A stretch of DNA of 64,000 bases. Origin: Tsuneonella dongtanensis (GTDB lineage: Bacteria > Pseudomonadota > Alphaproteobacteria > Sphingomonadales > Sphingomonadaceae). The stretch's first letter is position 1. Each line of letters starts with the position of its first letter. A program made the position numbers and the translations under genes. Below the pieces are notes generated by a model. It was given only the letters and a program-made list of their open reading frames with translations. It was not told the origin of the DNA and ran no database searches. Below are positions 41,418 through 56,667 of this stretch, one piece after another. The DNA is taken from positions 992,001 through 1,056,000 of the forward strand of contig NZ_CP016591.1 in the NCBI RefSeq assembly GCF_001698205.1. The letters run 5' to 3'.

Positions 41418-43910
41418 ATGGAATTCGTCGTCATTGCGCTGATCGTGGCGACGGTCGTCCTCTGGCGGCGCGTAAGCAGCCTCGAACGGCGCCTTGCCGA
41501 ACAGTCCGTCCTTCCGTTCGACATCGCCCCTGCGGCCCCCATCGCAGCGAGTGCGCGACCGGCCAGCAAGGTCTGGGAGCCAGAGCAATCGCAGGTCGCC
41601 GATCCGGTTGCCGCAGTGGAAGCCAAGCCTCCGGAATCTCGACTTGCGCTGCCGAGCTTCGATTTCGAAGACCTCTTCGGTCGGATGCTGCCGATTTGGG
41701 CGGGCGGTGTCACGCTGGCGGTGGCCGGGTTCTTCCTCGTGCGGTGGTCGATCGATGCCGGGCTGCTGACTCCGGCGGTGCGGGTTCTGCTCGCGGGCCT
41801 GTTCGGGGTCGCGCTTGTCGCGGGGGCGGAAGTGGCGTTCCGATGGCGTGAACGGGTCGCCGATCCGCGGGTCGCGCAGGCGCTCGCCGGTGCCGGGCTC
41901 GCGACACTCTACGCGGCTTTCTACCTTGCCGGGAGCACTTACGGGCTGATCGGATCGACCTTCGCGTTTCTCGGGCTGGCCGCGGTGACCGCCGCGGCGA
42001 TCGGGCTGTCGTTCCGGTTCGGCTTGCCGAGCGCGGTTCTCGCGCTGGTCGGCGGATTTGCCGCACCCGTGCTGGTCGGCAGCGAAGATGCGAACCTGCC
42101 GCTGCTTACGCTTTACCTCGCGCTGGTGACCGCGGGCCTCGCGTTTACCGGGCGGCGCCAAGACCGCGCGTGGCTCGGCGTGGCGGCGCTGGCGGGCGGG
42201 CTCGGCTGGGGTGCGCTCCTGCTCGCCGGAGGTGCTGCGAGCGAGACGGCAGATGCCGCGATCCTGGGCGCCTATCTCGTAATGCTCGGGGCAATCCTGC
42301 CCGCGCTCGCCGGAGGCGGCGGGCGTCCGCACTGGCTCGTACGGGTGGGCACGGCCGGACTCGCGGCATTCCAGATCGCGGTGCTGGTCGAACAGGGCGG
42401 CTTCGGCGGCCTTGAATGGGGGCTCTACCTGCTGCTCGGTGGCGCCCTCGCATGGTTCGGTTGGCGCGAACCGGCGATGCGGGAGGCGAATGCCGTCGCG
42501 GCGGCAGTCGGGATTGTCCTGCTGGCGGTCTGGCCGACGCCCCCGGCGGGCGAGTTCGCGCTTGTGGCGACCGGGCTGGCGGCGATCTTCGCGCTGGTCC
42601 CGCTGGCGCAGCTATGGCGCGGACATGGGCGCGAGATCGACGTGGCACAGGCTGCCGGTGTCGCGCTCGGACTGGCGGGTGTCATCCACGGCCGCTTCGC
42701 CTTGGGGCTTGGCGATGCGGTGGAGCCATTGTTGGCCCTGGCATTGCTGGCCGTGGCCGCCATCGCTGCTCTGGGGGCATCGCTCGCACGGCGCGCCGAG
42801 GGAGCCGACCATCGTTGGGCCTGGCTTGCGCAAGGCGTCGCTGCGCTTGTCGCCTACGACGCCGTCGCCCAGTTGGCACCGGATGCCGCCCTGGCCTGGA
42901 TCGCCGCACTGGCCGTAATCGTGCTGGCCTGGCGAGGGAGGGGGCTTGCCGGAGCGCTCGCCACCCTGGCGGCGCTGGCAGGTGCATGGGCGCTAATTCC
43001 GCTCAACGACTGGCTGGAGGAAGGCCTCTATGGCCTTGCGGGGAGCGCCGTGATGGCGATCGACCTGCCAACCCTGCGCGCGATGGCGCAATCGCTATTG
43101 CCTGTCGTCGCGGCGGCGAGCGCATGGCGACTGCTTGCCGGACCGACCGATACAACCCGCCGCGTGCTGGAAGCAGTCGCGGTCGCGGGGCTGCTCGTCT
43201 CCGTCCACATCGCGTACCGCCATGTGTTCGCCGGGATTGCGGGGACCGACTTCGCGGCGACCGGGGTCATCGAGCGTGCCGGGTGGGAGGGTTTGCTGCT
43301 CGCAGCGGCATGTCTGACCATGGCGCGCGGGCTGAACCGGGTGGCGCTCGCTCTCGCGCTGGCGGCCCTCGCGCATTTCGGCTGGTTCGCCGTGATCCTC
43401 CACAACCCGCTGTGGGCGAATCAAGCGGTCGGCCCGTTGCCGATCGCCAATGCCCTCGTGCCGATGTACGGCGCCGGGCTTGCGGGGCTGGTCCTGCTGC
43501 GACGCCGGTTGCCGGACGATCCGCCGTGGCTGCGCTGGACAGCCGATGGTGCGACGATGGCGCTGCTTGCCCTCTTCGCGCTGTCGCAGCTGCGACAGGC
43601 GTTCGCAGGTTCGATCCTCACCGCCACGGCCGTCGGGCCCACGGAGGACCTGCTTCGCTCGCTCGCCGGTATCGTGCTCGCGATCGGGTTCCTCCTGTGG
43701 GGTTCGCGCGGCGGCGGGCGGACCTGGCGCATCGGTTCGCTCGCGGCGATGGTGATCGCGGTGCTCAAGGTGTTCCTGGTCGACGCCGCCGGGCTCGAGG
43801 GGCTGGCGCGGGTCGGCTCGTTCATGGCGCTGGGCTTCAGCCTTATCGGCATCGGCTGGTTCTACAACCGCCAGCTTCGCGAACCCGCCAGGGAAATCGC
43901 CGCGCCGTAA
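41418..43910 (+). CDS. DUF2339 large polytopic membrane protein
   Basis: 830 residues with an N-terminal hydrophobic segment and short coiled stretch (EFVVIALIVATVVLWRRVSSLERRLAEQ), a Pro/Ala linker, then more than 20 membrane segments. The family signature region is LFGRMLPIWAGGVTLAVAGFFLVRWSIDAGLL, followed by many short conserved loops with Gly/Arg. DUF2339 has no assigned function; envelope or polymer transport is often guessed. The ATG at 41418 is preferred (a GTG directly before is possible); the longer frame from 41316 overlaps the divergent Crp/Fnr start and is rejected. Confidence 0.85.
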   Translation: MEFVVIALIVATVVLWRRVSSLERRLAEQSVLPFDIAPAAPIAASARPASKVWEPEQSQVADPVAAVEAKPPESRLALPSFDFEDLFGRMLPIWAGGVTLAVAGFFLVRWSIDAGLLTPAVRVLLAGLFGVALVAGAEVAFRWRERVADPRVAQALAGAGLATLYAAFYLAGSTYGLIGSTFAFLGLAAVTAAAIGLSFRFGLPSAVLALVGGFAAPVLVGSEDANLPLLTLYLALVTAGLAFTGRRQDRAWLGVAALAGGLGWGALLLAGGAASETADAAILGAYLVMLGAILPALAGGGGRPHWLVRVGTAGLAAFQIAVLVEQGGFGGLEWGLYLLLGGALAWFGWREPAMREANAVAAAVGIVLLAVWPTPPAGEFALVATGLAAIFALVPLAQLWRGHGREIDVAQAAGVALGLAGVIHGRFALGLGDAVEPLLALALLAVAAIAALGASLARRAEGADHRWAWLAQGVAALVAYDAVAQLAPDAALAWIAALAVIVLAWRGRGLAGALATLAALAGAWALIPLNDWLEEGLYGLAGSAVMAIDLPTLRAMAQSLLPVVAAASAWRLLAGPTDTTRRVLEAVAVAGLLVSVHIAYRHVFAGIAGTDFAATGVIERAGWEGLLLAAACLTMARGLNRVALALALAALAHFGWFAVILHNPLWANQAVGPLPIANALVPMYGAGLAGLVLLRRRLPDDPPWLRWTADGATMALLALFALSQLRQAFAGSILTATAVGPTEDLLRSLAGIVLAIGFLLWGSRGGGRTWRIGSLAAMVIAVLKVFLVDAAGLEGLARVGSFMALGFSLIGIGWFYNRQLREPAREIAAP

Positions 43911-43913
43911 CAT

Positions 43914-43931
43914 TAGTCACGCGCGCGTCAC
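43914..43931 (+). promoter_or_regulatory. Weak phased repeat (Pho-like) before the response regulator
   Basis: GTCAC at 43916-43920 and 43927-43931 are exactly 11 bp apart (TTAGTCAC-GCGC-GTCAC frame), 40 bp before the ATG. The cores match the Pho half-site only in GTCAC, so confidence is low. Confidence 0.25.
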
Positions 43932-43970
43932 ATCAGCCCGCCATTCCATCCCGACAGGCCGGGGGCATGG

Positions 43971-44645
43971 ATGGACGTGGTCAATATTTTCCTCACCGAC
44001 AGCAGCGCCGAGACGATGGACGATTTCGTCCACGCCGGGCGCCGCTACACTTTTGCCCGCATCGGCGGCGAAGGACCGCAACGGCTGGTAGAGGGTCCGG
44101 TCTGGGCGTTCGTCGACTGGGTGCTGCCCGAGCTTGCGGGGCTCGAGATGTGCCGCCGCCTACGCTCCGATCCGCGCACGAGCGAAGCCCACATCACCAT
44201 GGTCCTGGAGGAAGACGACCCCGAGGATCGTAGGCGTGCGTTGAAGGCTGGCGCCGACGATTACATGCTGGGCCCCGTCGACCGGACGGCGGTGCTCGAC
44301 CGGGTCATAGCGGTCGATCCACTGCAACAGCAGCGCAGCATCGGCCAGCGTTTCGAGGTCGGCGATCTGACCATCGACATGGCGGCGCTCCAGGCGCGCT
44401 GGAGTGGTACCCCTCTCGTGCTTCCGCCCAACGAGTTTCGCCTGCTGCTCTATTTCGCGGAGAACCCCAACCGGGTCATGACGCGCGAACAGCTCATCGC
44501 CGGGCTCGGCAAGCAGGAGCCGGCGATCGATGCGCGCACGGTCGACGTGTGGATCGGCCGCCTGCGCCGCGCACTCAAGGCTGCGGGCGCGGGCAATCCG
44601 CTGCGCACCGTGCGCTCGCTCGGCTACGTGCTGGATCTTCCCTGA
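43971..44645 (+). CDS. PhoB-like winged-helix response regulator with a degenerate receiver
   Basis: 224 residues. The receiver (1-115) keeps the phosphoacceptor Asp D49 in FVDWVLPELAG, but the switch Thr is Leu (L79 in ITMVLEEDD), the conserved Lys is Gly (G101 in DYMLGPVD), and the acidic pair is reduced to one Asp (FLTDSS). The OmpR-type DNA-binding domain (about 125-224) is close to PhoB: LPPNEFRLLLYFAENPNRVMTREQL, RTVDVWIGRLRRAL and RTVRSLGYVL. No sensor kinase is adjacent. It may work without, or with unusual, phosphorylation. It sits next to the TonB-lipoprotein and virB genes. Confidence 0.85.
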   Translation: MDVVNIFLTDSSAETMDDFVHAGRRYTFARIGGEGPQRLVEGPVWAFVDWVLPELAGLEMCRRLRSDPRTSEAHITMVLEEDDPEDRRRALKAGADDYMLGPVDRTAVLDRVIAVDPLQQQRSIGQRFEVGDLTIDMAALQARWSGTPLVLPPNEFRLLLYFAENPNRVMTREQLIAGLGKQEPAIDARTVDVWIGRLRRALKAAGAGNPLRTVRSLGYVLDLP

Positions 44646-44657
44646 CGCCAAGTCGAA

Positions 44658-44690
44658 AAGCGGGCCGCTCCGTGATGGAGCGACCCGCTT
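44658..44690. terminator. Bidirectional hairpin between response regulator and TonB receptor
   Basis: AAGCGGG (44658-44664) pairs with CCCGCTT (44684-44690) and CGCTCC (44666-44671) with GGAGCG (44677-44682), one internal mismatch, loop GTGAT. It lies between two convergent genes and could end both transcripts; the plus-side tail (GTCGATGCTCTTCT) is only moderately T-rich. Confidence 0.6.
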
Positions 44691-44715
44691 GTCGATGCTC
44701 TTCTGAGCCGGTGGG

Positions 44716-47442
44716 CTAGAATTTCGCGCTGAGCGAGGCGGCGAACGTCGTGCCGATGTCGTAGTTGTTGATCGCTGCGCGACCGGTCCCGTAGTCCTGG
44801 AACTCGATGTGCCCGCGTCCCAGGACGTTGCGCGCCTCGAACTTCAACTCCATCTCGCCGAAGCCCGGCCATTCGAAGCCCTGACGGGCGACGATGTCGA
44901 GGTTGAACCCGGGCCGTTCGATAATGTCCGGATCGAGCACCCCGCCGGTGTTCGCACCGCGCGAAGTGACCCGCTCGCTCGCGTAGGTGAGCAGGAACGT
45001 GAGCTGTTCGAGGCGGTCGGTGTTCTCGATGCCGAACTGGAAGTTCGCGAGGTGCTCCGACTGGCCCGTCAACGGGCTGCCGTCGGTGAATACCTGCGTC
45101 GCAGGAGCGATCAGCGGGCTGTCGATGTTTCCGGGAAACAGCACGGTCGTGTCGCCCGCCCCGACCTTCAGCTTCGACTTGCTCCAGGTATAGTTGGCCG
45201 ACAGCGCAATGCGATAGGGTGCCAGTGCATCGCCCAGACCTTCGAGCCCGATGTACTTCACGACTTCGGCCTCGACGCCGTAGAGCGTGGCCTTGGGCGC
45301 GTTCGCATTGGTTACCTGGAGCGTCCCCGCGGCGTCGATTGTGGCGATCGTTTCGATCGGCGCGTCGAGCGACTTGAAGAACCCCGCAAGCGACACCCGT
45401 TCGCCCCGCGCGGGATACCATTCGACGCGGGTCTCCGCATTCCACAGCACGCTGTCGGTCAGGAACGGATTGCCGGCGAGGACGCGGTCAGACTCGACGT
45501 CGAGGACGGGGATGGTGCCCAGCTCGCGAAACTGCGGGCGGGCGATCGTCTTCGATCCGTGGAGTCGGAACTGGAAGTCCTCGGCGAAATTCCACGTCGC
45601 GGTGGCTGCGGGGAGCCAGTAATCATTGGCCTTGGTTATGACCGCAGCGTTGCCCGCTCCCGCGGGATTGTTCCCATAGAGGTCCGGCAGGGTGAGCAAC
45701 TGCTCGGCGTCCTCGTAGCGAACGCCCGCTTCCAGCCGCAGGCCGGTCGCCACCTCGACGTCGGCGCGGACGTACGCACCGTGGACGGTGAGGTCGCCCC
45801 CATACTGCGCCTGGCCGTACGCCCGGTTCACCTGGCGTAGCGTGATGTCCTCGAAGTCGATGAGCTCCGGGCTGAGCAGGAGGTAGATCGGCAGGTACGA
45901 CTGGCCCGTGCCGGCGATCGGCGCGCCGCCGTCGTCATAGACGAAGTTCAGGCTCTGGAACGTTCGCGCCGTGTCGCTGTAGGCGTATCCGGCCGACAGC
46001 TTGCCATTGACGATGCCGGTGAGATCGTACCCGATATCGGCGCCGCCGGCCCAGACGGTCTCGTCGAGCGCGCTGAAAATGACCCCCGTGGGCACCCCAA
46101 GCCTTACCGCGTAACCGCCGGTGCTGCCGACGTAGCGATACTGTGTGGTGCGCTCGTATGGGGAATCGCGGTCCGATTTCGAATAGCTGCCACGCAGGTC
46201 CAGTTCGATCGCGCCGAACTCGAACTCGCCGACCGCCTGCGAAGTGAACAGCTGGCGCTGGACGTAACTGCTTTCGTAATTGAGCGAATCGTAGGGGCCG
46301 GAAAGCCGGTCGTCCTCGAGATCCTCGAACGGCGTCTGGATGTTCTCGAAAGCGCCGCGCACCCGGGCCACCTTGGACGTGTCGCGGATGAACACGTTCG
46401 TCAGGCGCACCTTGTGGCCCTGCGGCAGGTCGAGGCCGAGAGCGAGAAGGCCGCTCGCCTGGATCTTGTTCTCGGTCCGCACGCCGTAGCTGCTGTTGAC
46501 CAGCGATCCGGCGGTGGCGGTCTGCTGCGTCGCGCCGCGTGTCTTCCAGCCATTCGAGAAGCTGGCGCTGGCAATCGCGCCGAACCGGGTGTCGCCGAAG
46601 TCGGTGCCGTAGCCCGCGGCGAGCGAAGCGCTGAAATTGGCCGGGATTTGCCGGTTGCGCTGGAGGATGAGCGTATCCTCGTTCTCGAGGACTCCGGCAT
46701 CGACCAGGGCGCCGTCATTATCGCGCAGCGCGCCCGGCAAGTCGCGGGTGCCGTCGTCGAAGCCGAAGACGTCGCGCTTGCTGCCATAATAGGTGTAGCC
46801 GAGCTGGGCGGTTGTTTCGCTGTCGCCGCTGATACCGACGCCGAGGGTCAGGTAGTTATCGTCGGGGAGCGAAGCGGTGGTGAGGTTGATAGCACCACCG
46901 CCGTATTCGCCCGGATAATTGACCGAGTAGCTTTTCTGGACGACCGCACTTGAGACGATGCTGGTGGGGAAGATATCCAGCGGGACGACGCGGCGCAGCG
47001 GCTCGGGCGAGGGCAGGGCCAGTCCATTCAACAGCGCGAGGCTGTAGCGATCGCCCAGACCACGGACATAGACGAAGCCGTTGGTGTTGACCGAAAGTCC
47101 GGTCACCCGCACCAGTGCGCCCGCGATGTCTCCGTCGCCGGTACGGGCGATTTCGCCCGCCGACAGGACGCTCACCACTTGCGCGGTGTTGCGCACCGGT
47201 TCGGGGATGAAGCGTCCGGTGACGACGATCTCGGCGCCTTCGGAGCCGGGAGCGGAGATCTCGACTTCCTCCTCGACCTGCTCGTCGGCCTCTATCGGTT
47301 CTGGGGCCGGCTCGGGGGCAGGCTCGGCGACTTGCTCGCCGGCGGTCGGAAGCGGCTGGGGCTGGGCCTGCGCAAGGGCAGGCGCGGCGACAAGGCCGGT
47401 CCCCGCGAGGAGAGCGGCGGCGTAGGGTCGCAGGCGGCGCAT
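44716..47442 (-). CDS. TonB-dependent outer-membrane receptor
   Basis: 908 residues. Signal peptide (MRRLRPYAAALLAGTGLVAAPALAQA), then an acidic Pro/Glu-rich spacer (EPAPEPAPEPIEADEQVEEEVEISAPG), TonB box-like EIVVTGRF, a plug domain (VRVTGLSVNTNGFVYVRGLGDRYS; DIFPTSIVSSAVVQKSYSVNYPGEYGGGAINLTTASLP) and a long barrel ending in a Phe strand (AASLSAKF). The plug says ligand import across the outer membrane; ligand unknown. The lipoprotein gene lies directly upstream on the same strand (74 bp), so the two are likely one transcript starting near 49.1 kb. Confidence 0.92.
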   Translation of the reverse strand: MRRLRPYAAALLAGTGLVAAPALAQAQPQPLPTAGEQVAEPAPEPAPEPIEADEQVEEEVEISAPGSEGAEIVVTGRFIPEPVRNTAQVVSVLSAGEIARTGDGDIAGALVRVTGLSVNTNGFVYVRGLGDRYSLALLNGLALPSPEPLRRVVPLDIFPTSIVSSAVVQKSYSVNYPGEYGGGAINLTTASLPDDNYLTLGVGISGDSETTAQLGYTYYGSKRDVFGFDDGTRDLPGALRDNDGALVDAGVLENEDTLILQRNRQIPANFSASLAAGYGTDFGDTRFGAIASASFSNGWKTRGATQQTATAGSLVNSSYGVRTENKIQASGLLALGLDLPQGHKVRLTNVFIRDTSKVARVRGAFENIQTPFEDLEDDRLSGPYDSLNYESSYVQRQLFTSQAVGEFEFGAIELDLRGSYSKSDRDSPYERTTQYRYVGSTGGYAVRLGVPTGVIFSALDETVWAGGADIGYDLTGIVNGKLSAGYAYSDTARTFQSLNFVYDDGGAPIAGTGQSYLPIYLLLSPELIDFEDITLRQVNRAYGQAQYGGDLTVHGAYVRADVEVATGLRLEAGVRYEDAEQLLTLPDLYGNNPAGAGNAAVITKANDYWLPAATATWNFAEDFQFRLHGSKTIARPQFRELGTIPVLDVESDRVLAGNPFLTDSVLWNAETRVEWYPARGERVSLAGFFKSLDAPIETIATIDAAGTLQVTNANAPKATLYGVEAEVVKYIGLEGLGDALAPYRIALSANYTWSKSKLKVGAGDTTVLFPGNIDSPLIAPATQVFTDGSPLTGQSEHLANFQFGIENTDRLEQLTFLLTYASERVTSRGANTGGVLDPDIIERPGFNLDIVARQGFEWPGFGEMELKFEARNVLGRGHIEFQDYGTGRAAINNYDIGTTFAASLSAKF

Positions 47443-47516
47443 TGTGGGTTCCCCCGGGTATGGATGGACGGGGAGGAAGCGCCCGTCGCGCCGCCTCCCC
47501 GTCCGACAGGTGTCGA

Positions 47517-49109
47517 TCAGAAAACGCGAATGTCGGTGCAGGCGAGCGCGCCGCGCAGGTCGGCTACGTCGCTGTTGCAGGTCCAGTCGCGCGTCCAGGT
47601 GTCGCTCGGACCGCTGAAGGCGCCGATGTAGTTAACCTGCTGGAAGAAGCTGCTGATCGAGCCGAGGCCCGTCGCAGCGACCACCGCCGATTCGTTGCTG
47701 CCGTTGGCAATCCGACCGACGCTCGATCCGGTCAGGAACTGGAGCGTGTTCGTGAACGCGCGGGTCACATTGGAGTTGGCCGCGTTGCTCAGCGCGGTTT
47801 CCTCGAACGTGTCGCTGTCGGCATCGATCAGAACCTGACAGTCGAACACGACCGAGAGGAACCGCGGCGGGCCGCGGTCAGCGGTGCCGTTGTAGGTGCC
47901 TGCAGCCTGCACGGTCTCGGCGTTGTCGACGTCGAGACAGCCCTGCGTGCCGCCGACCCGGGCGACTACGATGCCGTTGACGAAGTCGATGTCTGCACCG
48001 CCACGCAGCCGGATCGCGGGCTCGTTCGGAGTGGTCTGGAGCAGGGTGAAGTTGGCGAGCTTGAGGTACTGGCGCGGGCTGGCGTCGTTCGCCGCCGAGC
48101 TGTCGATCTCGAGCATGTTCTGGCCGCCGATGCTGTCGCCGACCGTGCCGTTGGCGCGCCGGGCAGCGAACAGGAACTGCACGGAGCCGATGTAGCCGTT
48201 GTCGGTATCAAGTGAATCGTCGGCTATGCCGGTCATCACCAGGTGATCCATGTTCTGCGTGCCGCCGAACGATTCGATACCATCGTCGAGGCTGTTATGG
48301 ATTTGCAGGTAGCTCATGACAGTGCCCGAGCCGACGCCGCCCGTGGTGATGCCCTGGATCTCGCTGCCGCCCGAGCCGACCCCGGTGAAGTTCACCTGGA
48401 CGTAGCGGAGCGTGCCCGAGCTGTCGTTGGCGACATTGCCGCCGAACAGGGTGTCCTGGGCCACGCCTTCGGCCTTGCGCCAGCAGCCTGCGGCGCCGCC
48501 GGTGGTCGAGGTCGAAACGGTCGGATCGCAGTCCGATACCGGTGCCCGGCCGTTGATGATCAGTCCGCCCCACAGGTTGTCGGTCGCTTCGGTCAGCCCC
48601 GCGCCTGTCAGGTTGGCGAGCGCGGTGAAGATGATCGGCTGGGCCTGGGTGCCGTCGGCGTTCAGGCGCGATCCGCGGTTGACGACCAGGGTGGTCTCGC
48701 GCGTGGCGGCGAAAACCGTCACGCCGGGCAGGACGTTGAGCGTCGCTGCCGCACCGCCCGTCAGGTCGACGTCACGGCCCACGTCGGTGCGGCCGCTCAT
48801 CGAGTACATGATGCCGTCGGCGCGGCGCCCGCTGAGGGTGAGCGTGCCCGAAATCAGGCTGGGCACGACGCAATTGCGAACGGTGCCGCGGCTGTTCTGC
48901 AGCGCGACTGTGCCGCCGTCGGTCGTGCCCGGGGTGCATGAGGCTGCCGCGGTGACCGACCCGCCCGGAACGCTCGTCGGCGTCGGGGTCGGTGCGGGTG
49001 CCGGATTGACGATGATCGGCCCGCCGGGCGCGACGACGTCGTCGGCACCACAAGCAGTCAACGCGAGCGCACTGCATCCTGCAAGGACGAGGCCCTGAAA
49101 CTTCTGCAC
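47517..49109 (-). CDS. Predicted lipoprotein, probable beta-helix, partner of the TonB receptor
   Basis: 530 residues. N-terminus MQKFQGLVLAGCSALALTAC has two possible lipoboxes (LAGC, LTAC), predicting an outer-membrane lipoprotein. A Pro/Thr linker (NPAPAPTPTPTSVPG) leads to an extracellular domain with beta-helix-like repeats (TLRYVQVNFTGVGSGG, GTVMSYLQIHNSLDDGIESFGG, MDHLVMTGIADDSLDTDNG). Six or so Cys residues could form disulfides. Related proteins accompany TonB receptors in other bacteria; function unknown. Start is GTG at 49109 with RBS GAGGGG; the longer open frame reaches into a regulatory spacer. Possibly binds the receptor ligand at the cell surface. Confidence 0.78.
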   Translation of the reverse strand: MQKFQGLVLAGCSALALTACGADDVVAPGGPIIVNPAPAPTPTPTSVPGGSVTAAASCTPGTTDGGTVALQNSRGTVRNCVVPSLISGTLTLSGRRADGIMYSMSGRTDVGRDVDLTGGAAATLNVLPGVTVFAATRETTLVVNRGSRLNADGTQAQPIIFTALANLTGAGLTEATDNLWGGLIINGRAPVSDCDPTVSTSTTGGAAGCWRKAEGVAQDTLFGGNVANDSSGTLRYVQVNFTGVGSGGSEIQGITTGGVGSGTVMSYLQIHNSLDDGIESFGGTQNMDHLVMTGIADDSLDTDNGYIGSVQFLFAARRANGTVGDSIGGQNMLEIDSSAANDASPRQYLKLANFTLLQTTPNEPAIRLRGGADIDFVNGIVVARVGGTQGCLDVDNAETVQAAGTYNGTADRGPPRFLSVVFDCQVLIDADSDTFEETALSNAANSNVTRAFTNTLQFLTGSSVGRIANGSNESAVVAATGLGSISSFFQQVNYIGAFSGPSDTWTRDWTCNSDVADLRGALACTDIRVF

Positions 49110-49419
49110 GATTGAATTCCCCTCATGTCGCGGAAACGGGCGATACTCGATCGCCTCGACTCGCGGACTAGTCGGGGGAGGTGACAGTTTCTTTGCAAAC
49201 TCGTCAGGTTTGCGACATGACTGATATTTGACGAGAATATTACATTTACGACGAAGCAACAATATTACGCAGTTGCACCGTGGGTGTTCTCCGGCGCGAG
49301 GTGGACCTCGTTGAGCGGAGGGAAATATTACAAGTCAGTGACAATGTTTCAGATATGTTGCAATTGCCCGCGACGGCGATGATTATGATCCCCGTGGCCA
49401 TTGAGAGCCGGGAGAGAGA
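49110..49419. promoter_or_regulatory. Divergent regulatory spacer: phased Pho-like repeats and three AATATTAC copies
   Basis: 310 bp with no gene and much more A+T than around it. On the minus strand (toward the lipoprotein) three 11-bp-phased half-sites are seen: ATGTAAT (49239-49245), TCGTCAA (49228-49234), CAGTCAT (49217-49223), compared with the Pho half-site CTGTCAT. A second candidate pair, TTGTCAC-TGAC-TTGTAAT, lies at 49327-49344. The octamer AATATTAC occurs at 49236, 49261 and 49324. Likely an operator/promoter region for the lipoprotein-TonB operon and the small TPR gene. Confidence 0.5.
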
Positions 49420-49794
49420 ATGATGTCGTTGATGCTTGCAACCTCGATCCTCGTGATCGCGCCGGTCCCGCAGGTGGAGCAGGTCGACGTGGCCTTTGAC
49501 CAGCTGTCCGCCGGGCGCAACGGAGAGGCGATCGCTCGGCTCGAAACCACCGGCGCGGAGGCAGAGGGCCATCCCGCAGGTCTGATCAATCTTGGTGTGG
49601 CGCATGCCCGGCGCGGGGACGAAGCCGAAGCCCGGCGCCTGTTTCAGCGCGCTGCCGCGATGACCCAGCGTTACGAGCTCGAAACCGCGAGCGGCACCTG
49701 GGTCGACAGTCGTTCGCTCGCGCTGAAGGCGCTGGCCGCGCTCGATCGTGGCGCATTGGGCTCGGCGAGCGCGACCCGCACCGCCCGCCGCTGA
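49420..49794 (+). CDS. Small TPR-like protein
   Basis: 124 residues with an N-terminal hydrophobic stretch (MMSLMLATSILVIAPVPQ) that may be a signal or anchor. A tetratricopeptide-like pair follows: DVAFDQLSAGRNGEAIARLETTGAEAEGHP and LINLGVAHARRGDEAEARRLFQRAAAM. The basic tail (ASATRTARR) is unstructured. Two adjacent ATGs are possible (49420, 49423), both behind GGAGAGA. It is divergent to the lipoprotein gene, next to the TonB pair and before virB1. Function unknown; a periplasmic helper is a guess. Confidence 0.65.
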   Translation: MMSLMLATSILVIAPVPQVEQVDVAFDQLSAGRNGEAIARLETTGAEAEGHPAGLINLGVAHARRGDEAEARRLFQRAAAMTQRYELETASGTWVDSRSLALKALAALDRGALGSASATRTARR

Positions 49795-49822
49795 TTTTCC
49801 CTTTCCCCAATGGGGCTTGTCG

Positions 49823-49855
49823 GCCCGCCGGTTCGCGCCGGCGGGCTGATTTTTT
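49823..49855 (+). terminator. Intrinsic terminator after the TPR gene
   Basis: GCCCGCCGG (49823-49831) pairs perfectly with CCGGCGGGC (49838-49846), loop TTCGCG, followed by TGATTTTTT. It separates the TPR gene from the virB operon, so virB must use its own promoter. Confidence 0.88.
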
Positions 49856-49886
49856 GCTGATGGTTTAACGATCCCGGTTCAGGAAT

Positions 49887-49904
49887 CTGTCACCCGCCTG
49901 TCAT
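49887..49904 (+). promoter_or_regulatory. Pho-box-like direct repeat upstream of virB1
   Basis: CTGTCAC-CCGC-CTGTCAT: two seven-base half-sites exactly 11 bp apart, one base from the CTGTCAT-N4-CTGTCAT consensus for PhoB binding. It lies 39 bp before the virB1 ATG and after a strong terminator, the position expected for an activator site over the -35 region. No convincing -10 hexamer is seen beyond TAGTGT/TAGGCA. Confidence 0.7.
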
Positions 49905-49942
49905 TTAGTGTAGGCACGGGGACCCGGACGGAGGGTTGTGCG

Positions 49943-50572
49943 ATGATTCTTGCCCGCGCGGGCATTGGGACGGCGATTGCGCTCTTGTGCGCCGCGGCTC
50001 CCGCGCATGCCGACGTGATGGAGATCGGGCCGACGGGTCCGCGCTGGATTTCCGGCGCTCTCGCGGTCGCGCCGGCGCCAGTCGAGGCCGCCGAGGACCC
50101 GGGACTTGTCGAACTGTCCGCCGATTTCGCCGTGCCGCCGTCCGCTGTCGCCGACGCTGCGGCGCAGTCGGGAATCGTGCCGGCGCTCTATGCCGCCAAG
50201 GTCGCCGAACTCGCACGCCGCTTCGATCTCAGTCCGACCCTGATCGAGGCGGTGGTCTGGCAGGAAAGCCGCTGGAATGCCGCGGCCCGCTCGCCGGTGG
50301 GCGCCCGCGGGCTCGCACAACTGATGCCCGGCACCGCGCGGTACCTCGGCGTCAATCCGGACGATCCGTTCGCCAATCTCGAAGGCGGGGCGCGTTACCT
50401 GCGCGAGCAGATGGACCGCTTCGACGGCGACATCGAAAAGGCGCTCGCCGCCTACAACGCGGGTCCGGGGCGGGTCATCGCCGCCGGCGGCATCCCGCGC
50501 ATCCGCGAAACTCAAGGGTATGTGGCCGCCATAATGGGCCGCCTGTCCGACCACTCACGAAAGCCCAACTGA
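49943..50572 (+). CDS. virB1: VirB1-like lytic transglycosylase
   Basis: 209-residue periplasmic murein hydrolase that opens the wall for secretion assembly. Signal peptide MILARAGIGTAIALLCAAAPAHA (about 1-23), a non-conserved stretch, then an SLT domain: catalytic E108 in VVWQESRWNAAARSPVGARGLAQLMPGTA, ANLEGGARYLREQM and ALAAYNAGPGRV. First gene of the type IV secretion run; virB2 begins 3 bp after its stop. Preceded by the Pho-box-like site and GGAGGG. Confidence 0.92.
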   Translation: MILARAGIGTAIALLCAAAPAHADVMEIGPTGPRWISGALAVAPAPVEAAEDPGLVELSADFAVPPSAVADAAAQSGIVPALYAAKVAELARRFDLSPTLIEAVVWQESRWNAAARSPVGARGLAQLMPGTARYLGVNPDDPFANLEGGARYLREQMDRFDGDIEKALAAYNAGPGRVIAAGGIPRIRETQGYVAAIMGRLSDHSRKPN

Positions 50573-50575
50573 TCC

Positions 50576-50872
50576 ATGCTTCGTTTCGTACGTTTTCTTC
50601 CCGTTTCACTGCTCGCCGTTTCGAGCGCCGCCTTCGCGCAGGACCCGCAAGGGTCGGGCCCCATCGTCGCGGCGCTGTCGTGGTTGCAAGGCACGCTGCT
50701 TGGCAACGTCGCCACGGCCGTCGCTGTGATGGCGGTCGCCGCGGTAGGGTTCATGATGCTGACGGGTAGGCTCAACTGGCGTTTCGGCGCGACCGTGATC
50801 ATCGGCGTGTTCATCCTGTTCGGATCGGCGAGCATCGTCGCCGGCATCCAGGGCGCGGCGGCCGGGACCTGA
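50576..50872 (+). CDS. virB2: VirB2/TrbC-like pilin
   Basis: 98 residues: a signal peptide (MLRFVRFLPVSLLAVSSAAFAQ) and two hydrophobic helices (GTLLGNVATAVAVMAVAAVGFMML; ATVIIGVFILFGSASIVAGI) joined by the basic loop GRLNWRF. This is the VirB2/TrbC layout of the T4SS pilus subunit. Immediately follows virB1 and is 3 bp before virB3. The pilin type would support a real extracellular filament or surface fibre. Confidence 0.9.
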   Translation: MLRFVRFLPVSLLAVSSAAFAQDPQGSGPIVAALSWLQGTLLGNVATAVAVMAVAAVGFMMLTGRLNWRFGATVIIGVFILFGSASIVAGIQGAAAGT

Positions 50873-50875
50873 GCG

Positions 50876-51157
50876 ATGGAACTCGTGCGCCATCCCGTCC
50901 ATCGCGCGCTCACCCGCCCGCAGATGTTCGCGGGGGTGACCTACAACTATTTCATCATCAACTTCGCGCTGACGACGGAACTGTTCCTGATCACCGGCAG
51001 CTGGTGGGCGCTGCCCGCCGCGCTGGTGTTCCACGGCATCGGCTACTTCGCCTGCCTGCGCGAACCGCGTATCTTCGACCTGTGGCTGACCAAGGTCAGC
51101 AAATGTCCCCGCGTTCCGAACTGGAAGCGCTGGGGCTGCAACAGTTACGCCGCCTGA
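50876..51157 (+). CDS. virB3: VirB3-like inner-membrane protein
   Basis: 93-residue membrane protein with the VirB3 pattern: HPVHRALTRPQMFAGVTYNYFIINFALTTELFLI at the N-terminus, one or two hydrophobic helices (SWWALPAALVFHGIGYFACL), then a basic C-terminus. VirB3 associates with VirB4 and is needed for pilus assembly. It sits in the canonical place between virB2 and virB4. Confidence 0.9.
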   Translation: MELVRHPVHRALTRPQMFAGVTYNYFIINFALTTELFLITGSWWALPAALVFHGIGYFACLREPRIFDLWLTKVSKCPRVPNWKRWGCNSYAA

Positions 51158-51173
51158 CGAGAAGGAGACGGCG

Positions 51174-53618
51174 ATGAGCAAATGGATCGGCGCCGCCGCC
51201 TGGAGCGCGAAGGAAGCGCGCGCGGGCGATCGGCTGCCTTATGCGAAGCTGATCGACGGGAACACCGTCCTGCTGCGCGACGGCAGCGTGATGACCGCGC
51301 TGCAGGTGCCCGGCCTGCTGTTCGAAACCGAGGATTCGGACGCACTCAATCACCATGCCGCCACCCGTGAGGTGATGCTGCGTTCGACGCTCGATGCGCG
51401 CTTCGTGCTCTACCATCACGTCATCCGCCGCCGGGTGCAGATCGAGCTCGAGGCCGAGTTCCCCGATCCGCTGACCGCGCACATCGACCGGCGCTGGAAG
51501 GAGCGGCTGGCCGGCGGCTCGCTGTTCGTGAATGACCAGTTCGTCACGCTCATCCGCCGGCCGGCACGCGGCAAGGCCGGCCTGGCCGAAAAGGCATCCA
51601 GGATGTGGAGCCGGAAAGGCCAGCGCGAGGTCGAGGCCGATCCCAGGGACGTGCGTGCCCTCAAAGCCGCCGCGACCGGACTCGTCGCTTCGCTGCAAGC
51701 CTACGGCGCGGCGCTGCTCGACGATTACGAAGGGCCGAGTGGGGCGACCAACAACGAGATCCTCGAGCTTCTGTCGGCGCTCTACAACGGCGAAATGCGC
51801 CCGGTCCGCCGCCCCGCGGACGAAACCGACATCGGGCAGATGCTGCCGTATCGCCGCGCGAGCTTCGGGCTCGACGCGATGGAGCTGCGCGGTTCGGGCG
51901 AACCCGATTTCGCCGCGCTTCTCAGCCTCAAGGATTATCCCGAAGCGACCAGCCCGGGTCTGCTCGATGCGCTGCTGCGTCAGCCGTTCGAGATGGTCGT
52001 CAGCGAAAGCTACGCTCCGTCCGAACGCACGACGGCGCGCGAGCGGATGGACCTCGCGATCCGACGCCTCAAGTCGGCCGACGAGGAAGCGATGGCCGAG
52101 CGGCACGACATGCTCGCCGCTCGCGATGCCCTCGGGAACGGCGCGGTCGGCTTTGGCGACCATCACCTGACCGTGCTGGTGCGCGAGCGCAGCTTGCCCT
52201 CGCTCGACGAAGCGACCGCGGCCTGTGCCGCGGCGCTCGCCGATACCGGCGCGATCGTCGTGCGCGAGGATACCAATCTCGAACCCGCGTTCTGGGCACA
52301 GTTCCCCGGCAACGAGGCCTATATCGCCCGCCGCGCGATGATCTCGAGCGCCAACATGGCCAGCTTCGGCTCGTTCCATGGCATGGCCTTGGGTCAGGCC
52401 GACGGGAACCACTGGGGCGAAGCGGTCACGCTGCTGCAGACCACCAGCCAGACGCCGTTCTTCTTCAACTTCCACACCGGCGATCTCGGCAACTTCACCG
52501 TCATCGGCCCATCGGGCAGCGGCAAGACCGTGGTGATGAATTTCCTCGCCGCGCAGGCGCAGAAATTCAGCCCCAGGACGATCCTTTTCGACAAGGACCG
52601 GGGTGCTGAACTCTTCATCCGCGGAATCGGCGGACGGTACGACCGGATCGCCAGCGGAGAGCCGACCGGGTTCAACCCGCTCGCCCTGCCCGATACGCCG
52701 GGCAACCGCGCGTTCCTGCGCGAATGGCTCGCCGTGCTGCTCAAGGCCGAAGGGCCGGAGGAATTGGCGACCATCGCGGGCGCGGTCGACGCGGCCTATG
52801 CCAACGACGCGTCGCTGCGCCGCCTCAGGCATTTCCGCGAGCTTTTGTCGGGGGCGAAGCGGCCGCAGCCGGGCGACCTTGCCGACCGGCTCTCGGCGTG
52901 GATTTCGGGCGGCGAGCACAGCTGGCTGTTCGACAACGACCACGACCGGCTAGACCTGTCGCAGCGCGTGCTCGGCTTCGACATGACCGCGCTGCTCGAA
53001 AGCCCGCGTCTGCGCACGCCGACGATGATGTACCTGTTCCACCGGATCGAGGAGCGGCTCGACGGAAAGCCGACGATGCTCCTGATCGACGAGGGCTGGA
53101 AAGCGCTCGACGACGAGGTCTTCGCCGCGCGCATCCGCGACTGGCTGAAAACGCTGCGCAAGCGCAATGCGCTCGTCGGCTTCGCGACGCAGTCGGCGCG
53201 TGACGCGCTCGAAAGCCGCATCGCGACTGCGCTCGTCGAGCAGACCGCGACGATGATCTTCATGCCCAATGCCCGCGCCCGGGCCGAAGACTACTGCGAC
53301 GGGTTCGGCCTGACCCAGCACGAACTCGCGCTGATTCGCTCCCTCCCGGCGCATAGCCGGGCGTTCCTGATCCGCCAGCCGGACGCCAGCGTCGTCGTGC
53401 GGCTCGACCTGTCGGGCGCGCCCGAGGTGCTCGCGGTGCTTTCGGGCAGGGAAAGCACGGTCCGGAGGCTCGACCTGCTGCGCGAGGCGGTGGGCGACAA
53501 CCCTGCAGACTGGTTCCCGCCGCTCACCGGCCATGCCTGGCCCGGCGGTTCGACCATCGACGAGGCGCCGATCGGGGGAGGCGGGGGCGAAGTGCCCTTC
53601 CGCCTCGCCGCCGAATGA
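51174..53618 (+). CDS. virB4: VirB4-like T4SS ATPase
   Basis: 814-residue CagE/TrbE/VirB4 ATPase that energises pilus assembly and substrate transfer at the inner membrane. N-terminal VirB4 domain with LPYAKLIDGNTVLLRDGSVM. Walker A is GPSGSGKT (445-452); Walker B is MLLIDEGWKAL (635-645), followed by QSARDALES. RBS GAAGGAGA before the ATG. The stop overlaps virB6 by ATGA. Complete and apparently intact. Confidence 0.96.
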   Translation: MSKWIGAAAWSAKEARAGDRLPYAKLIDGNTVLLRDGSVMTALQVPGLLFETEDSDALNHHAATREVMLRSTLDARFVLYHHVIRRRVQIELEAEFPDPLTAHIDRRWKERLAGGSLFVNDQFVTLIRRPARGKAGLAEKASRMWSRKGQREVEADPRDVRALKAAATGLVASLQAYGAALLDDYEGPSGATNNEILELLSALYNGEMRPVRRPADETDIGQMLPYRRASFGLDAMELRGSGEPDFAALLSLKDYPEATSPGLLDALLRQPFEMVVSESYAPSERTTARERMDLAIRRLKSADEEAMAERHDMLAARDALGNGAVGFGDHHLTVLVRERSLPSLDEATAACAAALADTGAIVVREDTNLEPAFWAQFPGNEAYIARRAMISSANMASFGSFHGMALGQADGNHWGEAVTLLQTTSQTPFFFNFHTGDLGNFTVIGPSGSGKTVVMNFLAAQAQKFSPRTILFDKDRGAELFIRGIGGRYDRIASGEPTGFNPLALPDTPGNRAFLREWLAVLLKAEGPEELATIAGAVDAAYANDASLRRLRHFRELLSGAKRPQPGDLADRLSAWISGGEHSWLFDNDHDRLDLSQRVLGFDMTALLESPRLRTPTMMYLFHRIEERLDGKPTMLLIDEGWKALDDEVFAARIRDWLKTLRKRNALVGFATQSARDALESRIATALVEQTATMIFMPNARARAEDYCDGFGLTQHELALIRSLPAHSRAFLIRQPDASVVVRLDLSGAPEVLAVLSGRESTVRRLDLLREAVGDNPADWFPPLTGHAWPGGSTIDEAPIGGGGGEVPFRLAAE

Positions 53619-54784
53619 GCGCGGCCTGCGATCAGGCCGCAAAGGGCGTCGGCAACGGCGTCGCCGCGGCGCTGCAGGCGGTCGATTGCGTCGCCGCCGA
53701 AACCACCGCGGCCGCGTTCGGCCGCCTCTTCGCACCGGGCGGTGCGCTCGTCACGGTGCTGACGATCCTCCTGACGCTGTTCGTGGCGTGGTTCGGCATC
53801 AACCTGCTGCTCGGCCGGGCGAACCTTTCGGTCCGCTCGCTCACCCCGCGGATGATGACGATCGGCGTGGTGCTGACGCTGGTGACGAGCTGGGTCGCCT
53901 ACAGCACGCTCTTATGGAACCTCGCGGTCGGCGGGCCCGACTGGATCGCGGGCGTCATCACCGGTGCCCGGGAAAGTGCAACGCAGGTCTTCGCGCAGAA
54001 GATCGACGTCGTCTTCCAGGCGCTCCAGCAGGCAAGCCCGCAGACCGAGGGCAAGGACATCGGGGCGTTCTCGCCAGAGGGCATGATGTGGCTCGGTGCG
54101 ATGCTTTTCCTGCTCGGCACCGTGGGCGTGCTCGTGACGGCGCGCATCGGGCTTGCGGTGCTGGTGGCAATCGGGCCGGTTTTCGTGGTCATGGCGCTGT
54201 TTCCGGGCACGCGCGGGCTGTTCACCGGCTGGCTCAAAGGCCTCGTGATGCTGGCGCTCGTTCCGTTGTTCGCGGTTCTCGGGGGCAGCGTGATGCTGGA
54301 ACTCGCAGTCCCGATCCTGGCCGCGCTCGTCGCCACGCCGGGGCAGGTCGATCCGCAGGCGGCGATGGCCTTCTTCGTCGTCGGCGCGGTCCATGCCGCG
54401 CTGATGATCATGGTGCTCAAGGTCGCGGGGACCATGGTCGCCGGCTGGCGCGTGTTCGGCCTGGTGCCCGACAAGGGCGACCGCGGCGAAAGCGGGGCGA
54501 GTGCCGCGCCGACCGTGGTGTCGGCGGCGGCCGCCGCGAGCCCTTCCGCTCAATCGTCCGCGGCAAGCGATCGCCGGATCCCGGTCGCCGCATTCGCCAC
54601 CGCACCCGCCGCCAACGACGTCGTCGCGGCAAGCGGAGGCAGCCGCGATACCCGCGTCATCACCAACACCGTCGCTTCAGGTTCCGGTCAGGCGGCATCC
54701 GCCATGCCGGGGACCACGCGCGCCAAGGGGGTCGGCAGTCGGTTCCGGGCCCCGCCGCCGCGTCTCTCGGAGAAAATGAAATGA
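53615..54784 (+). CDS. virB6: VirB6/TrbL-like polytopic membrane protein
   Basis: 389 residues with about six membrane segments (VTVLTILLTLFVAWFGINLLLG; MTIGVVLTLVTSWVAYSTLLWN; MLFLLGTVGVLVTARIGLAVLVAIGPVFVVMALFPGT; LVMLALVPLFAVLGGSVMLELAVPIL; AALMIMVLKVAG). N-terminal ACDQAAKGVGNGVAAAL is typical of TrbL/VirB6 channel proteins. The C-terminus after DKGDRGES is long, Ala/Ser-rich and low in complexity. The start overlaps virB4 (ATGA), and the stop overlaps virB9. No gene for virB5 lies before it, nor virB7 or virB8 after it. Confidence 0.9.
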   Translation: MSAACDQAAKGVGNGVAAALQAVDCVAAETTAAAFGRLFAPGGALVTVLTILLTLFVAWFGINLLLGRANLSVRSLTPRMMTIGVVLTLVTSWVAYSTLLWNLAVGGPDWIAGVITGARESATQVFAQKIDVVFQALQQASPQTEGKDIGAFSPEGMMWLGAMLFLLGTVGVLVTARIGLAVLVAIGPVFVVMALFPGTRGLFTGWLKGLVMLALVPLFAVLGGSVMLELAVPILAALVATPGQVDPQAAMAFFVVGAVHAALMIMVLKVAGTMVAGWRVFGLVPDKGDRGESGASAAPTVVSAAAAASPSAQSSAASDRRIPVAAFATAPAANDVVAASGGSRDTRVITNTVASGSGQAASAMPGTTRAKGVGSRFRAPPPRLSEKMK

Positions 54785-55569
54785 TCCGCGCCAGCCTCGT
54801 GCTTGCACTCGCTGCCACTTCCGTTGCCGCTTCTGCGCAGGATGCGCGGATCGTCGAGCGTTTCTACGATGCCGGCAAGATCGTCCGCATCGAAGGCCGC
54901 ACCAAGGTCCAGGCGACGATCCAGTTCGGCGAGGACGAGCATATCGAGAACGTGGCGATCGGCGACAGCGAGGCGTGGCAGGTCACGCCGAACAAGCGGG
55001 CCAACCTGCTGTTCGTGAAGCCGCTCGCGCCCAACGCGTCGACCAACATGACCGTCGTCACCGACCGGCATACCTACCTGTTCGATCTCGTCGCGAGCGC
55101 CGGCGCCAAGCCGCTCTACGTCCTGCGGTTCACCTATCCTGAAGAGCCCAAGCCGGCCGTTCGCATGGCCGAGAGCGGGGCTCCGACCGAGGACGAGATC
55201 GCCGCGATCACCCAGCCGCAGGCGGTGACCGACCCAGCCGAGCTCAACTTCGCCTGGGAGGGCAAGGGCGATCGCAAGCTGCTTCCCGCGCGCACCTACG
55301 ACGATGGCAGCGCGACCTTCCTCGCCTGGCCCGCGGGCAGTCCGGTTCCGGCGATCCTGATCAAAGATGCCGCGGGTACCGAAGGGCCGGTCAACTTCAC
55401 CGTGCGCGGCGACGTGATCGTCGTCGACGGGGTCCCGCGCGAGATCGTGCTGCGTTCGGGCAAGGACGCCGCGACGTTGATCAACAGCGGCCCAGCCAAG
55501 GCTGCTCCGCCGAGCCCGCAGGCTGCACTGGCCCGTTCCGACATGCCGATTTCAGGGGAGAACCGATAA
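54781..55569 (+). CDS. virB9: VirB9/TrbG-like outer-membrane core component
   Basis: 262 residues. Signal peptide MIRASLVLALAATSVAASAQ. An N-terminal domain binding the periplasmic core (VERFYDAGKIVRIEGRTKVQATIQFGEDEHIENVAIGDSEAWQV; RANLLFVKPLAPNASTNMTVVTDRHTYLFDL) is followed by the C-terminal beta-sandwich (NFAWEGKGDRKLLPARTYDDGSATFLAW; VNFTVRGDVIVVDGVPREIVLRSGKDAATL). VirB9 normally pairs with the lipoprotein VirB7; none is seen. ATGA overlap with virB6 and TAATG-type overlap with virB10. Confidence 0.93.
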   Translation: MIRASLVLALAATSVAASAQDARIVERFYDAGKIVRIEGRTKVQATIQFGEDEHIENVAIGDSEAWQVTPNKRANLLFVKPLAPNASTNMTVVTDRHTYLFDLVASAGAKPLYVLRFTYPEEPKPAVRMAESGAPTEDEIAAITQPQAVTDPAELNFAWEGKGDRKLLPARTYDDGSATFLAWPAGSPVPAILIKDAAGTEGPVNFTVRGDVIVVDGVPREIVLRSGKDAATLINSGPAKAAPPSPQAALARSDMPISGENR

Positions 55570-56663
55570 TGCGTCTCGCCATGCGACTGCCCGCGAAGAA
55601 GCCGGGCGACACCGCTACCGACAGCGACCCGCGCGAGGGGGAAAGCGCCGAGATCATCGATCTCGCCAGCCGCAACGCCTTTCCCGCGGTTACCCAGCGC
55701 AAGGGCAAGTCGGACGGATTCGGGCTTGCGGCCGGCGTAGCGGTCATCGGCCTGATCGGCGCGATCACCCTGTGGAGCATGAACGCGGCGCGGACCGACC
55801 AGCAACAAGTCGCCGCTGCTCCGCAACCGGTGCAACCGGCCCCGGTCGTCCCGCCGCAGGCAGTGACCACAGTCGCGCCGCCGCAGCAGGCGGTCGCGCC
55901 GCGCCCCGATCCGGCACCGCAGCCGGTCTATGCCCAGCCGGTGCAGCAGGTCCCGGGCGTGCGTGCCAATCCCTATTCCAACCCAACGGTGGTGTTCGAC
56001 GCGAGCAACCTTGGCGGCGGTCTTGGCGAAGCGGTCACCGGCGCGCCCGGCCAGGCAACGCCGGGCGGCGGCAGTGCGAACGACTTCGCCAGCCGGGTCG
56101 GCGGGGTAGGCGGCGCACCCGCTCAGGCAAGCGCCATGGTCAATCCGCAAACCACGGTGACCCAAGGCACGCTGATCCCGGCAGTGCTCGAGACCGCGAT
56201 CAACACCGACGTCCCCGGCTATGTCCGCGCGGTGGTGAGCCAGGACGTGCGGAGCTTCGATGGCACGCGCATCCTCGTGCCCCGCTCGAGCCGGCTGATC
56301 GGCCAATACCAGTCGGGACTGCAAGGCGGGCAGAAGCGCGCCTACGTTATCTGGACCCGGCTGATCCGGCCCGATGGTGCTTCGGTGAACCTGGCCTCTC
56401 CAGCGGTCGGTTTCGACGGGACGACGGGGCTCGAAGGCAAGGTGAACAGCCACTTCTTCAAGCGCTTCGGCTCGTCGATGTTGCTCTCGGTGATTGGCGG
56501 TCTCGCCACCGGCGGAGCCTCGGTCGTTCTCGGCGGCGGGACCAGCGCGGCTTCGACAGCGCTCCAGCAGGACGGGCAGATCGCCCCGACGGTGCGGGTC
56601 CGCGCCGGTGAGCCGATCCGCGTCTTCACGGCGCGCGATCTCGACTTCTCCGCGGTGAAGTGA
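55569..56663 (+). CDS. virB10: VirB10/TrbI-like energy-transducing core protein
   Basis: 364 residues: a cytosolic N-terminus, a membrane segment (FGLAAGVAVIGLIGAITLWSM, about 50-71), a Pro/Gln-rich periplasmic linker (about 80-130) and a C-terminal TrbI/VirB10 domain (QGTLIPAVLETAINTDVPGYVRAVVSQDV; TRILVPRSSRLIGQYQSG; RAYVIWTRLIRPDGASVNLASPAVG; GLEGKVNSHFFKRFGSSMLLSVIGG). This forms the outer channel ring with VirB9. Start overlaps the virB9 stop by one base. Confidence 0.95.
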   Translation: MRLAMRLPAKKPGDTATDSDPREGESAEIIDLASRNAFPAVTQRKGKSDGFGLAAGVAVIGLIGAITLWSMNAARTDQQQVAAAPQPVQPAPVVPPQAVTTVAPPQQAVAPRPDPAPQPVYAQPVQQVPGVRANPYSNPTVVFDASNLGGGLGEAVTGAPGQATPGGGSANDFASRVGGVGGAPAQASAMVNPQTTVTQGTLIPAVLETAINTDVPGYVRAVVSQDVRSFDGTRILVPRSSRLIGQYQSGLQGGQKRAYVIWTRLIRPDGASVNLASPAVGFDGTTGLEGKVNSHFFKRFGSSMLLSVIGGLATGGASVVLGGGTSAASTALQQDGQIAPTVRVRAGEPIRVFTARDLDFSAVK

Positions 56664-56667
56664 GTTG

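Follow-up and report, generated by a model that had tools for sequence, protein, structure and literature searches.

The described regulator closest to the one analysed here is PhoB (TIGR02154). The two share their domain order, DNA-contact residues, nearest clade and Pho-box context; unlike PhoB, however, our regulator has a shorter receiver without the Thr, the Lys and the acidic pair, shows no helix 2 in its structural model, replaces His198 by Trp and Arg200 by Gly or Lys, and has lost the Trp-Gly loop. CmrT of Clostridioides difficile likewise has a pseudo-receiver, and according to excerpts of a review an ordinary two-component system may govern how much of it is made (PMC12632262). The same excerpts place CmrT in one operon with a kinase and a regulator, whereas the present gene encodes a PhoB paralogue and lies mostly apart from phoB. 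ChxR, HP1043 and CosR resemble our protein in joining a degenerate receiver to a working winged-helix effector, and phosphorylation-independent action is reported for ChxR and HP1043; these proteins are, however, orphans of other lineages, and in the literature consulted none of them is reported to be encoded behind a Pho box in a cell that also has a canonical PhoB. In the WhiI-BldM case of Streptomyces, again as excerpted from the review (PMC12632262), an atypical regulator and a related one coexist in the same cell, as our regulator does with PhoB, but the dimer face of the family studied here has diverged from that of PhoB. Finally, the system of ElpS and Cc0171 in Caulobacter resembles our locus in its lipoprotein encoded beside a TonB receptor (PMC2996285, in part). 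How pseudo-receivers of bacteria are activated and inactivated is called a mystery in the excerpted review (PMC12632262).

The window, by which we mean the whole stretch of 64,000 nucleotides analysed, comes from a genome of 3.0 Mb in one contig and contains an open reading frame at 43971-44645 (+ strand) coding for a regulator of 224 residues. Its receiver matches PF00072 weakly (35.2 bits, cut-off 30.2) and its winged-helix effector matches PF00486 clearly (72.1 bits, cut-off 26.2), which marks an OmpR/PhoB-type protein; the PhoB equivalog TIGR02154 is the top NCBIfam model, at 143.3 bits and thus below its cut-off of 296.2. Among the best 80 of 212 matches there are 35 relatives at 46-93% identity, and the closest named one, 93% identical, is a Tsuneonella troitsensis protein. 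No published account of this regulator family, or of a Pho-box-controlled PhoB-like pseudo-receiver in sphingomonads, was found among the matches listed. By sequence, the regulator is a PhoB paralogue whose receiver has turned into a pseudo-receiver: Asp49 is kept, Thr has become Leu79, Lys has become Gly101, and Gly180-Lys181 stands in place of the Trp-Gly loop.

The kinship with PhoB is evident within the genome itself, where PhoB is the nearest paralogue (E 1.5e-38; the next reaches 1.3e-15). A phylogeny of 43 rows gathers the regulator family into a single clade (100/100) adjoining PhoB and separates it from five further OmpR-type regulators of the genome; the clade has a long stem (1.89 changes per column), and its exact attachment to PhoB is unsure. 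Matches at E 1.7e-62 or better occur in at least 63 of 246 genomes of the order, and five more genomes have matches near 1e-51, the level of PhoB; since up to 12 candidates were scored per genome in this survey, some regulators may be missed. Where all candidates were scored, in 42 genomes, the regulator is present in 21 and a PhoB-level match in all 42, and those PhoB-level matches that were read as sequence carry the canonical residues in 15 of 15 genomes. The proposal of the preliminary description that the regulator might replace PhoB is rejected, because every one of the 42 genomes keeps a PhoB-level match, 21 of them alongside the regulator. Two genomes, G149 (L143, L146) and G230 (L144, L145), hold two pseudo-receiver regulator copies each, one with a TonB neighbour and the other without.

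Alignment with PhoB rows, including the PhoB of the same genome, places Asp49 at the phospho-acceptor position (F-V-D-W), Leu79 at the Thr position and Gly101 at the Lys position. We compared 103 distinct rows of the regulator family with 17 PhoB rows. The acceptor position holds Asp in 101 family rows, Glu in one and a gap in one; the Thr position holds Leu in 98, Phe in three, Ile in one and a gap in one; and the Lys position holds Gly in 96, Ala in five and Glu in two, as opposed to D, T and K in all 17 PhoB rows. Both acids of the acidic pair survive in 12 family rows, one in 50 and none in 41, and the regulator of the window has one (D10). Of the canonical receiver residues (acidic pair, Asp, Thr/Ser, Lys), the Asp alone is kept. 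The alignment agrees with the preliminary description, which had seen Asp49, Leu for Thr, Gly for Lys and a single acid. Displacement of Thr and Lys that would leave them present elsewhere is excluded: both are substituted in 103/103 distinct rows, none of which has either residue at its position. Because Thr and Lys are lost family-wide, phosphorylation-independent control, suggested from the outset, would be the natural reading of the family; for ligand control, suggested with it, the residue table of the family rows gives no evidence. At K+2, 99/103 family rows have L, V, I or A where PhoB has Phe, and excerpts of the review state that these four residues bias CheY towards active conformations (PMC12632262). 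Cys61, found in 95/103 family rows, was considered as a redox sensor and discarded, since the same Cys is carried by 17/17 PhoB rows.

The receiver is also more compact: from strand 1 to the Asp it spans 40 residues rather than 45, a spacing reduced by five that holds in 98/104 rows, in which the window's own protein is counted twice. In an AlphaFold2 model (mean pLDDT 86.2, pTM 0.53) helix 1 is reduced to a five-residue stub and helix 2 is absent, and the helices and strands from beta3 to alpha5 are in place; the pTM leaves the mutual placing of the two domains unsure. The top fold matches of this model are OmpR/PhoB-type regulators, including the atypical CosR; another fold match is 2hqr, which we take to be HP1043. 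Its effector fits the PhoB effector 1gxq at 1.6 Å, and the base contacts are largely those of PhoB. The equivalent of Arg201 (PhoB numbering) is Arg in 103/103 distinct rows, and Thr194, Val197 and Arg219 are kept in 102, 97 and 87 of 104 rows, the window's own protein again being counted twice; these four residues of PhoB touch bases, according to excerpts of PMC3973317. The DNA-binding domain is PhoB-like, as had been recognised at first sight. Two positions have changed: His198 of PhoB is Trp in 102/103 family rows, and Arg200 is Gly in 77, Lys in 17, Ser in seven and Ala in two.

A Pho box, GTCACGCGCGCGTCACA, lies at 43916-43932 (+) in the regulator's own promoter. The pattern GTCAY-N6-GTCACA scores at least 9 of 11 letters upstream of the gene in 33/33 loci (27 at 11/11, four at 10/11 and two at 9/11), 55 to 93 bp before the start. 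Control tiles from the same loci (n=5232) reach 11/11 in 0, 10/11 in 11 and 9/11 in 120 cases, and 3300 shuffles do so in 1, 17 and 157. Fifty further regulator loci, which partly overlap the first set (some are of the same species and one is the window itself), gave 34, 12 and four boxes at these scores. In its own genome the pattern occurs five times and its reversed control not at all: before the regulator gene, before pstC, before a gene that is PstS-like but stays under the NCBIfam cut-off, before a phosphate porin gene (PF07396), and near trcR. The looser GTCAY-N6-GTCAY has 12 copies there (reversed-pattern control, 1), five of them before the regulator, virB1, PstS-like, pstC and porin genes; the open reading frames around the other seven reveal no phosphate link, a family test having been made for the trcR neighbour only. 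All six promoters compared in this genome (regulator, pstC, PstS-like, porin, virB and lipoprotein) have (C/T)GTCAY-N10-(C/T)A in common, the layout of a promoter with a Pho box in place of the -35 element; no site emerged when 43850-49950 was scanned for the sigma-70 consensus. With its box, its promoter spacing and a pattern shared with the genome's Pho genes, the regulator gene looks like a Pho gene.

The exact Pho-box pattern is present in 37/42 other genomes, mostly in few copies, with the control present occasionally. G123 and G446 contain many GTCACACnnnGGTCACA-like sites (21 and 9; control 1 each), apparently a repeat family and not Pho boxes. The copy near trcR mentioned above lies about 340 bp 5' of this TrcR-family gene (PF06242; L089, G000:C1:466505-466521). 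The stretch around the regulator includes metallophosphoesterase and glycosyltransferase genes in 5/85 loci (L136, L138, L153, L030, L017), joined in two of the 85 (L136, L138) by phoU and phoB; the metallophosphoesterase and glycosyltransferase pair is reminiscent of plcP and agt, phosphate-stress lipid genes, an identity on which the NCBIfam matches do not decide.

Convergent with the regulator gene is that of a TonB-dependent receptor with plug and barrel domains (44716-47442, -), which ends 70 bp past the regulator stop and not 5 kb away, as initially described. Beyond it lie genes for a lipoprotein with a predicted beta-helix (47517-49097, -; the start is our choice) and a small TPR-like protein (49420-49794, +) whose TPR matches stay below the Pfam cut-offs. 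The order is conserved: in 35 regulator loci TonB follows in 28, the lipoprotein in 24 and TPR in 23, counts in which several contigs end first and some of the seven loci without an adjoining TonB gene are cut short; in 20 longer stretches of divergent relatives TonB follows the regulator in 11. The lipoprotein matches no Pfam family, and the hits of a fold search with its model were all weak; most of them were beta-helix enzymes and tailspikes, and none reached E 0.001. A distant relative of the receptor-lipoprotein pair (L165) adjoins gspC, as described for elpS in excerpts of PMC2996285; the likeness is one of gene order. In two genomes, lipoprotein matches occur twice in one frame, of 965 and 934 codons (G393:C3:51301-54075 and G462:C2:260938-263685), as if two copies had fused.

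The lipoprotein gene has a Pho-type promoter element of its own (49168-49197, -; TGTCAC-N10-TAG with an upstream half-site), found in 22/24 loci against 0.24 expected from shuffles, for a pattern framed after the sequences had been seen. An exact Pho box lies about 120-160 bp 5' of the lipoprotein match in two genomes lacking the regulator (G497:C1:253560, G479:C30:220699), and the lipoprotein gene may therefore belong to the Pho genes independently of the regulator. On the TonB tree the label for regulator presence switches at least nine times, non-carriers being scattered over several positions amid the carriers, although TonB itself has been exchanged in some lineages. The receptors of the window (44716-47442), L001 and G030 form a starred group among those of regulator-less genomes, a position that an exchange of the receptor in situ, with regulator, array and TPR left untouched, would produce.

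The array in question is a 36-bp run of four PhoB-like TGnnAY half-sites between the lipoprotein and TPR genes (49327-49362, -) and constitutes a candidate binding site for the regulator. Across 20 loci, between 18 and all 23 of its letters match, where shuffles average 13 to 14 and the top shuffle reaches 18, and it is unique in its own genome at up to 3 mismatches. A further site, the Pho box at 49887-49904 (+), stands upstream of a chromosomal virB cluster (window 49887-57660) encoding a VirB1-like SLT, VirB2, B3, B4, B6, B9, B10 and B11. As the preliminary description held, it is a real Pho-type repeat, with both half-sites intact in 21/21 loci. It is perfect in 17/19 scored carriers of the regulator and also in 3/5 scored non-carriers; it is therefore more likely PhoB's site, and its assignment to the regulator is disfavoured. 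The array would be the better candidate for a regulator target. Some overlap between the sites of the two proteins is nevertheless plausible, because the regulator keeps the base-contact residues of PhoB and the virB site is real. A search of the genome for a VirD4-type coupling protein (PF02534) gave 0 matches, with 5/14 controls positive, and a VirB8 search gave no match in the genome and none in its control. The cluster is possibly a phosphate-controlled secretion or DNA-uptake system.

We lean slightly towards a model in which the regulator is set by its amount, induced by PhoB, and acts at the array, rather as a brake than as an activator. In phosphate starvation, PhoB~P would turn on the regulator gene, so that the amount of the protein, not its phosphorylation, would carry the signal. 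The regulator would dimerise without phosphate and bind 11-bp tandem half-sites, chiefly those of the lipoprotein/TPR array. By occupying these sites without PhoB-type activation, it would act on the array, and perhaps on other Pho boxes too, as a brake or roadblock that starvation induces. Granting the rest of the model, we place such a braking or roadblocking action just short of an even chance.

The argument for a brake comes from the sigma-contact loop, in which Trp184-Gly185 is replaced by Gly-Lys. Trp184 has become Gly in 100/103 family rows and Gly185 has become Lys in 100/103, as against 17/17 and 16/17 PhoB rows that keep them; in E. coli PhoB, W184R and G185R abolish activation, as stated in excerpts of PMC3973317. 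Acidic residues are left in this loop (Asp187 in 90/103 rows and Glu188 in 76/103) and could still meet sigma. Since other OmpR-type regulators, moreover, activate through other contacts, the loss of Trp-Gly proves no brake. The same acidic residues would serve a feed-forward activator, in which a starvation-induced, phosphate-independent dimer, sitting on the array, turns on the promoter of the TPR or lipoprotein gene by some contact that does not involve PhoB's Trp-Gly loop. The array runs in the same direction as the lipoprotein gene, which suits such a role, whereas its pointing away from the TPR gene weighs against the preferred model. A raised level of a constitutively active pseudo-receiver has been proposed for CmrT (PMC12632262, in excerpts). 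This alternative is possible but doubtful, given that the two residues needed by E. coli PhoB are each replaced nearly throughout the family.

The proposed target calls for a similar weighing. The array reaches at least 18/23 in 18/21 carriers of the regulator and 1/21 non-carriers; among loci with TPR the split is 18/18 against 1/6 (p 1.4e-4, a value that treats related genomes as independent, with a consensus drawn, and hence biased, from carriers and a cut of 18 fixed after the scores were seen). Three carriers (G435, G438, G459) have neither TPR nor array. The array might instead serve PhoB or some different OmpR-type regulator and accompany the regulator gene because neighbours tend to be lost together, the regulator itself acting elsewhere. 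Array and gene are neighbours, TPR is also missing in 15/21 non-carriers, the TGTCAY half-sites are PhoB-like, and the non-carrier G482 keeps an array at 19/23, all of which this account would explain. It is rather unlikely, however, in view of the sharper division of TPR loci by the array than by the virB box and of the several places that non-carriers occupy in the TonB tree. On these comparisons the array is best ascribed to the regulator, and the virB box to PhoB.

The regulator keeps part of the alpha4-beta5-alpha5 dimer face. Asp96, Asp97 and Arg111 are as in PhoB in 102, 100 and 99 of 103 family rows, which could permit pairing with PhoB and a change in its affinity or targets, in the manner of WhiI with BldM (PMC12632262, in excerpts). 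Such a heterodimer is improbable: other positions of the face differ from PhoB yet are conserved within the family, namely Val/Ile to Arg88 (96/103), Glu/Asp to Lys/Arg92 (81) and Ala to Asp110 (90), and at position 107 the Glu of PhoB has given way to a mixture. A face diverged from PhoB and conserved in the family suggests a homodimer with a face of its own. Direct ligand control of the pseudo-receiver, or residual phosphorylation of Asp49, would fit the near-constancy of this Asp (101/103 rows) and a receiver that is still a conserved folded domain, but is very unlikely, as an unphosphorylated Asp can support dimerisation, which excerpts of PMC12632262 report for GlnR and RamR, the position following the Thr holds an acid in 98/103 rows and Ala in PhoB, and Cys61 is no special sensor.

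The preferred amount-controlled brake lends itself to experiment. PhoB as the likely master regulator, the array as a predicted target, genomes that lack the gene and a sharp change of Trp-Gly to Gly-Lys are available side by side, and amount control and the choice between brake and activator are therefore directly testable. In its most specific form, which we consider somewhat doubtful, the regulator would be an activation-dead PhoB duplicate that works free of phosphate, binds Pho repeats, is itself under Pho control and, as it accumulates, holds back part of the response; if this is true, the two-component system produces an antagonist of itself. The regulator, conserved in a group of Sphingomonadales, may fine-tune or damp the phosphate response, and if the Pho boxes described here work, that response would also extend to the lipoprotein with its TonB receptor and to the chromosomal virB cluster.
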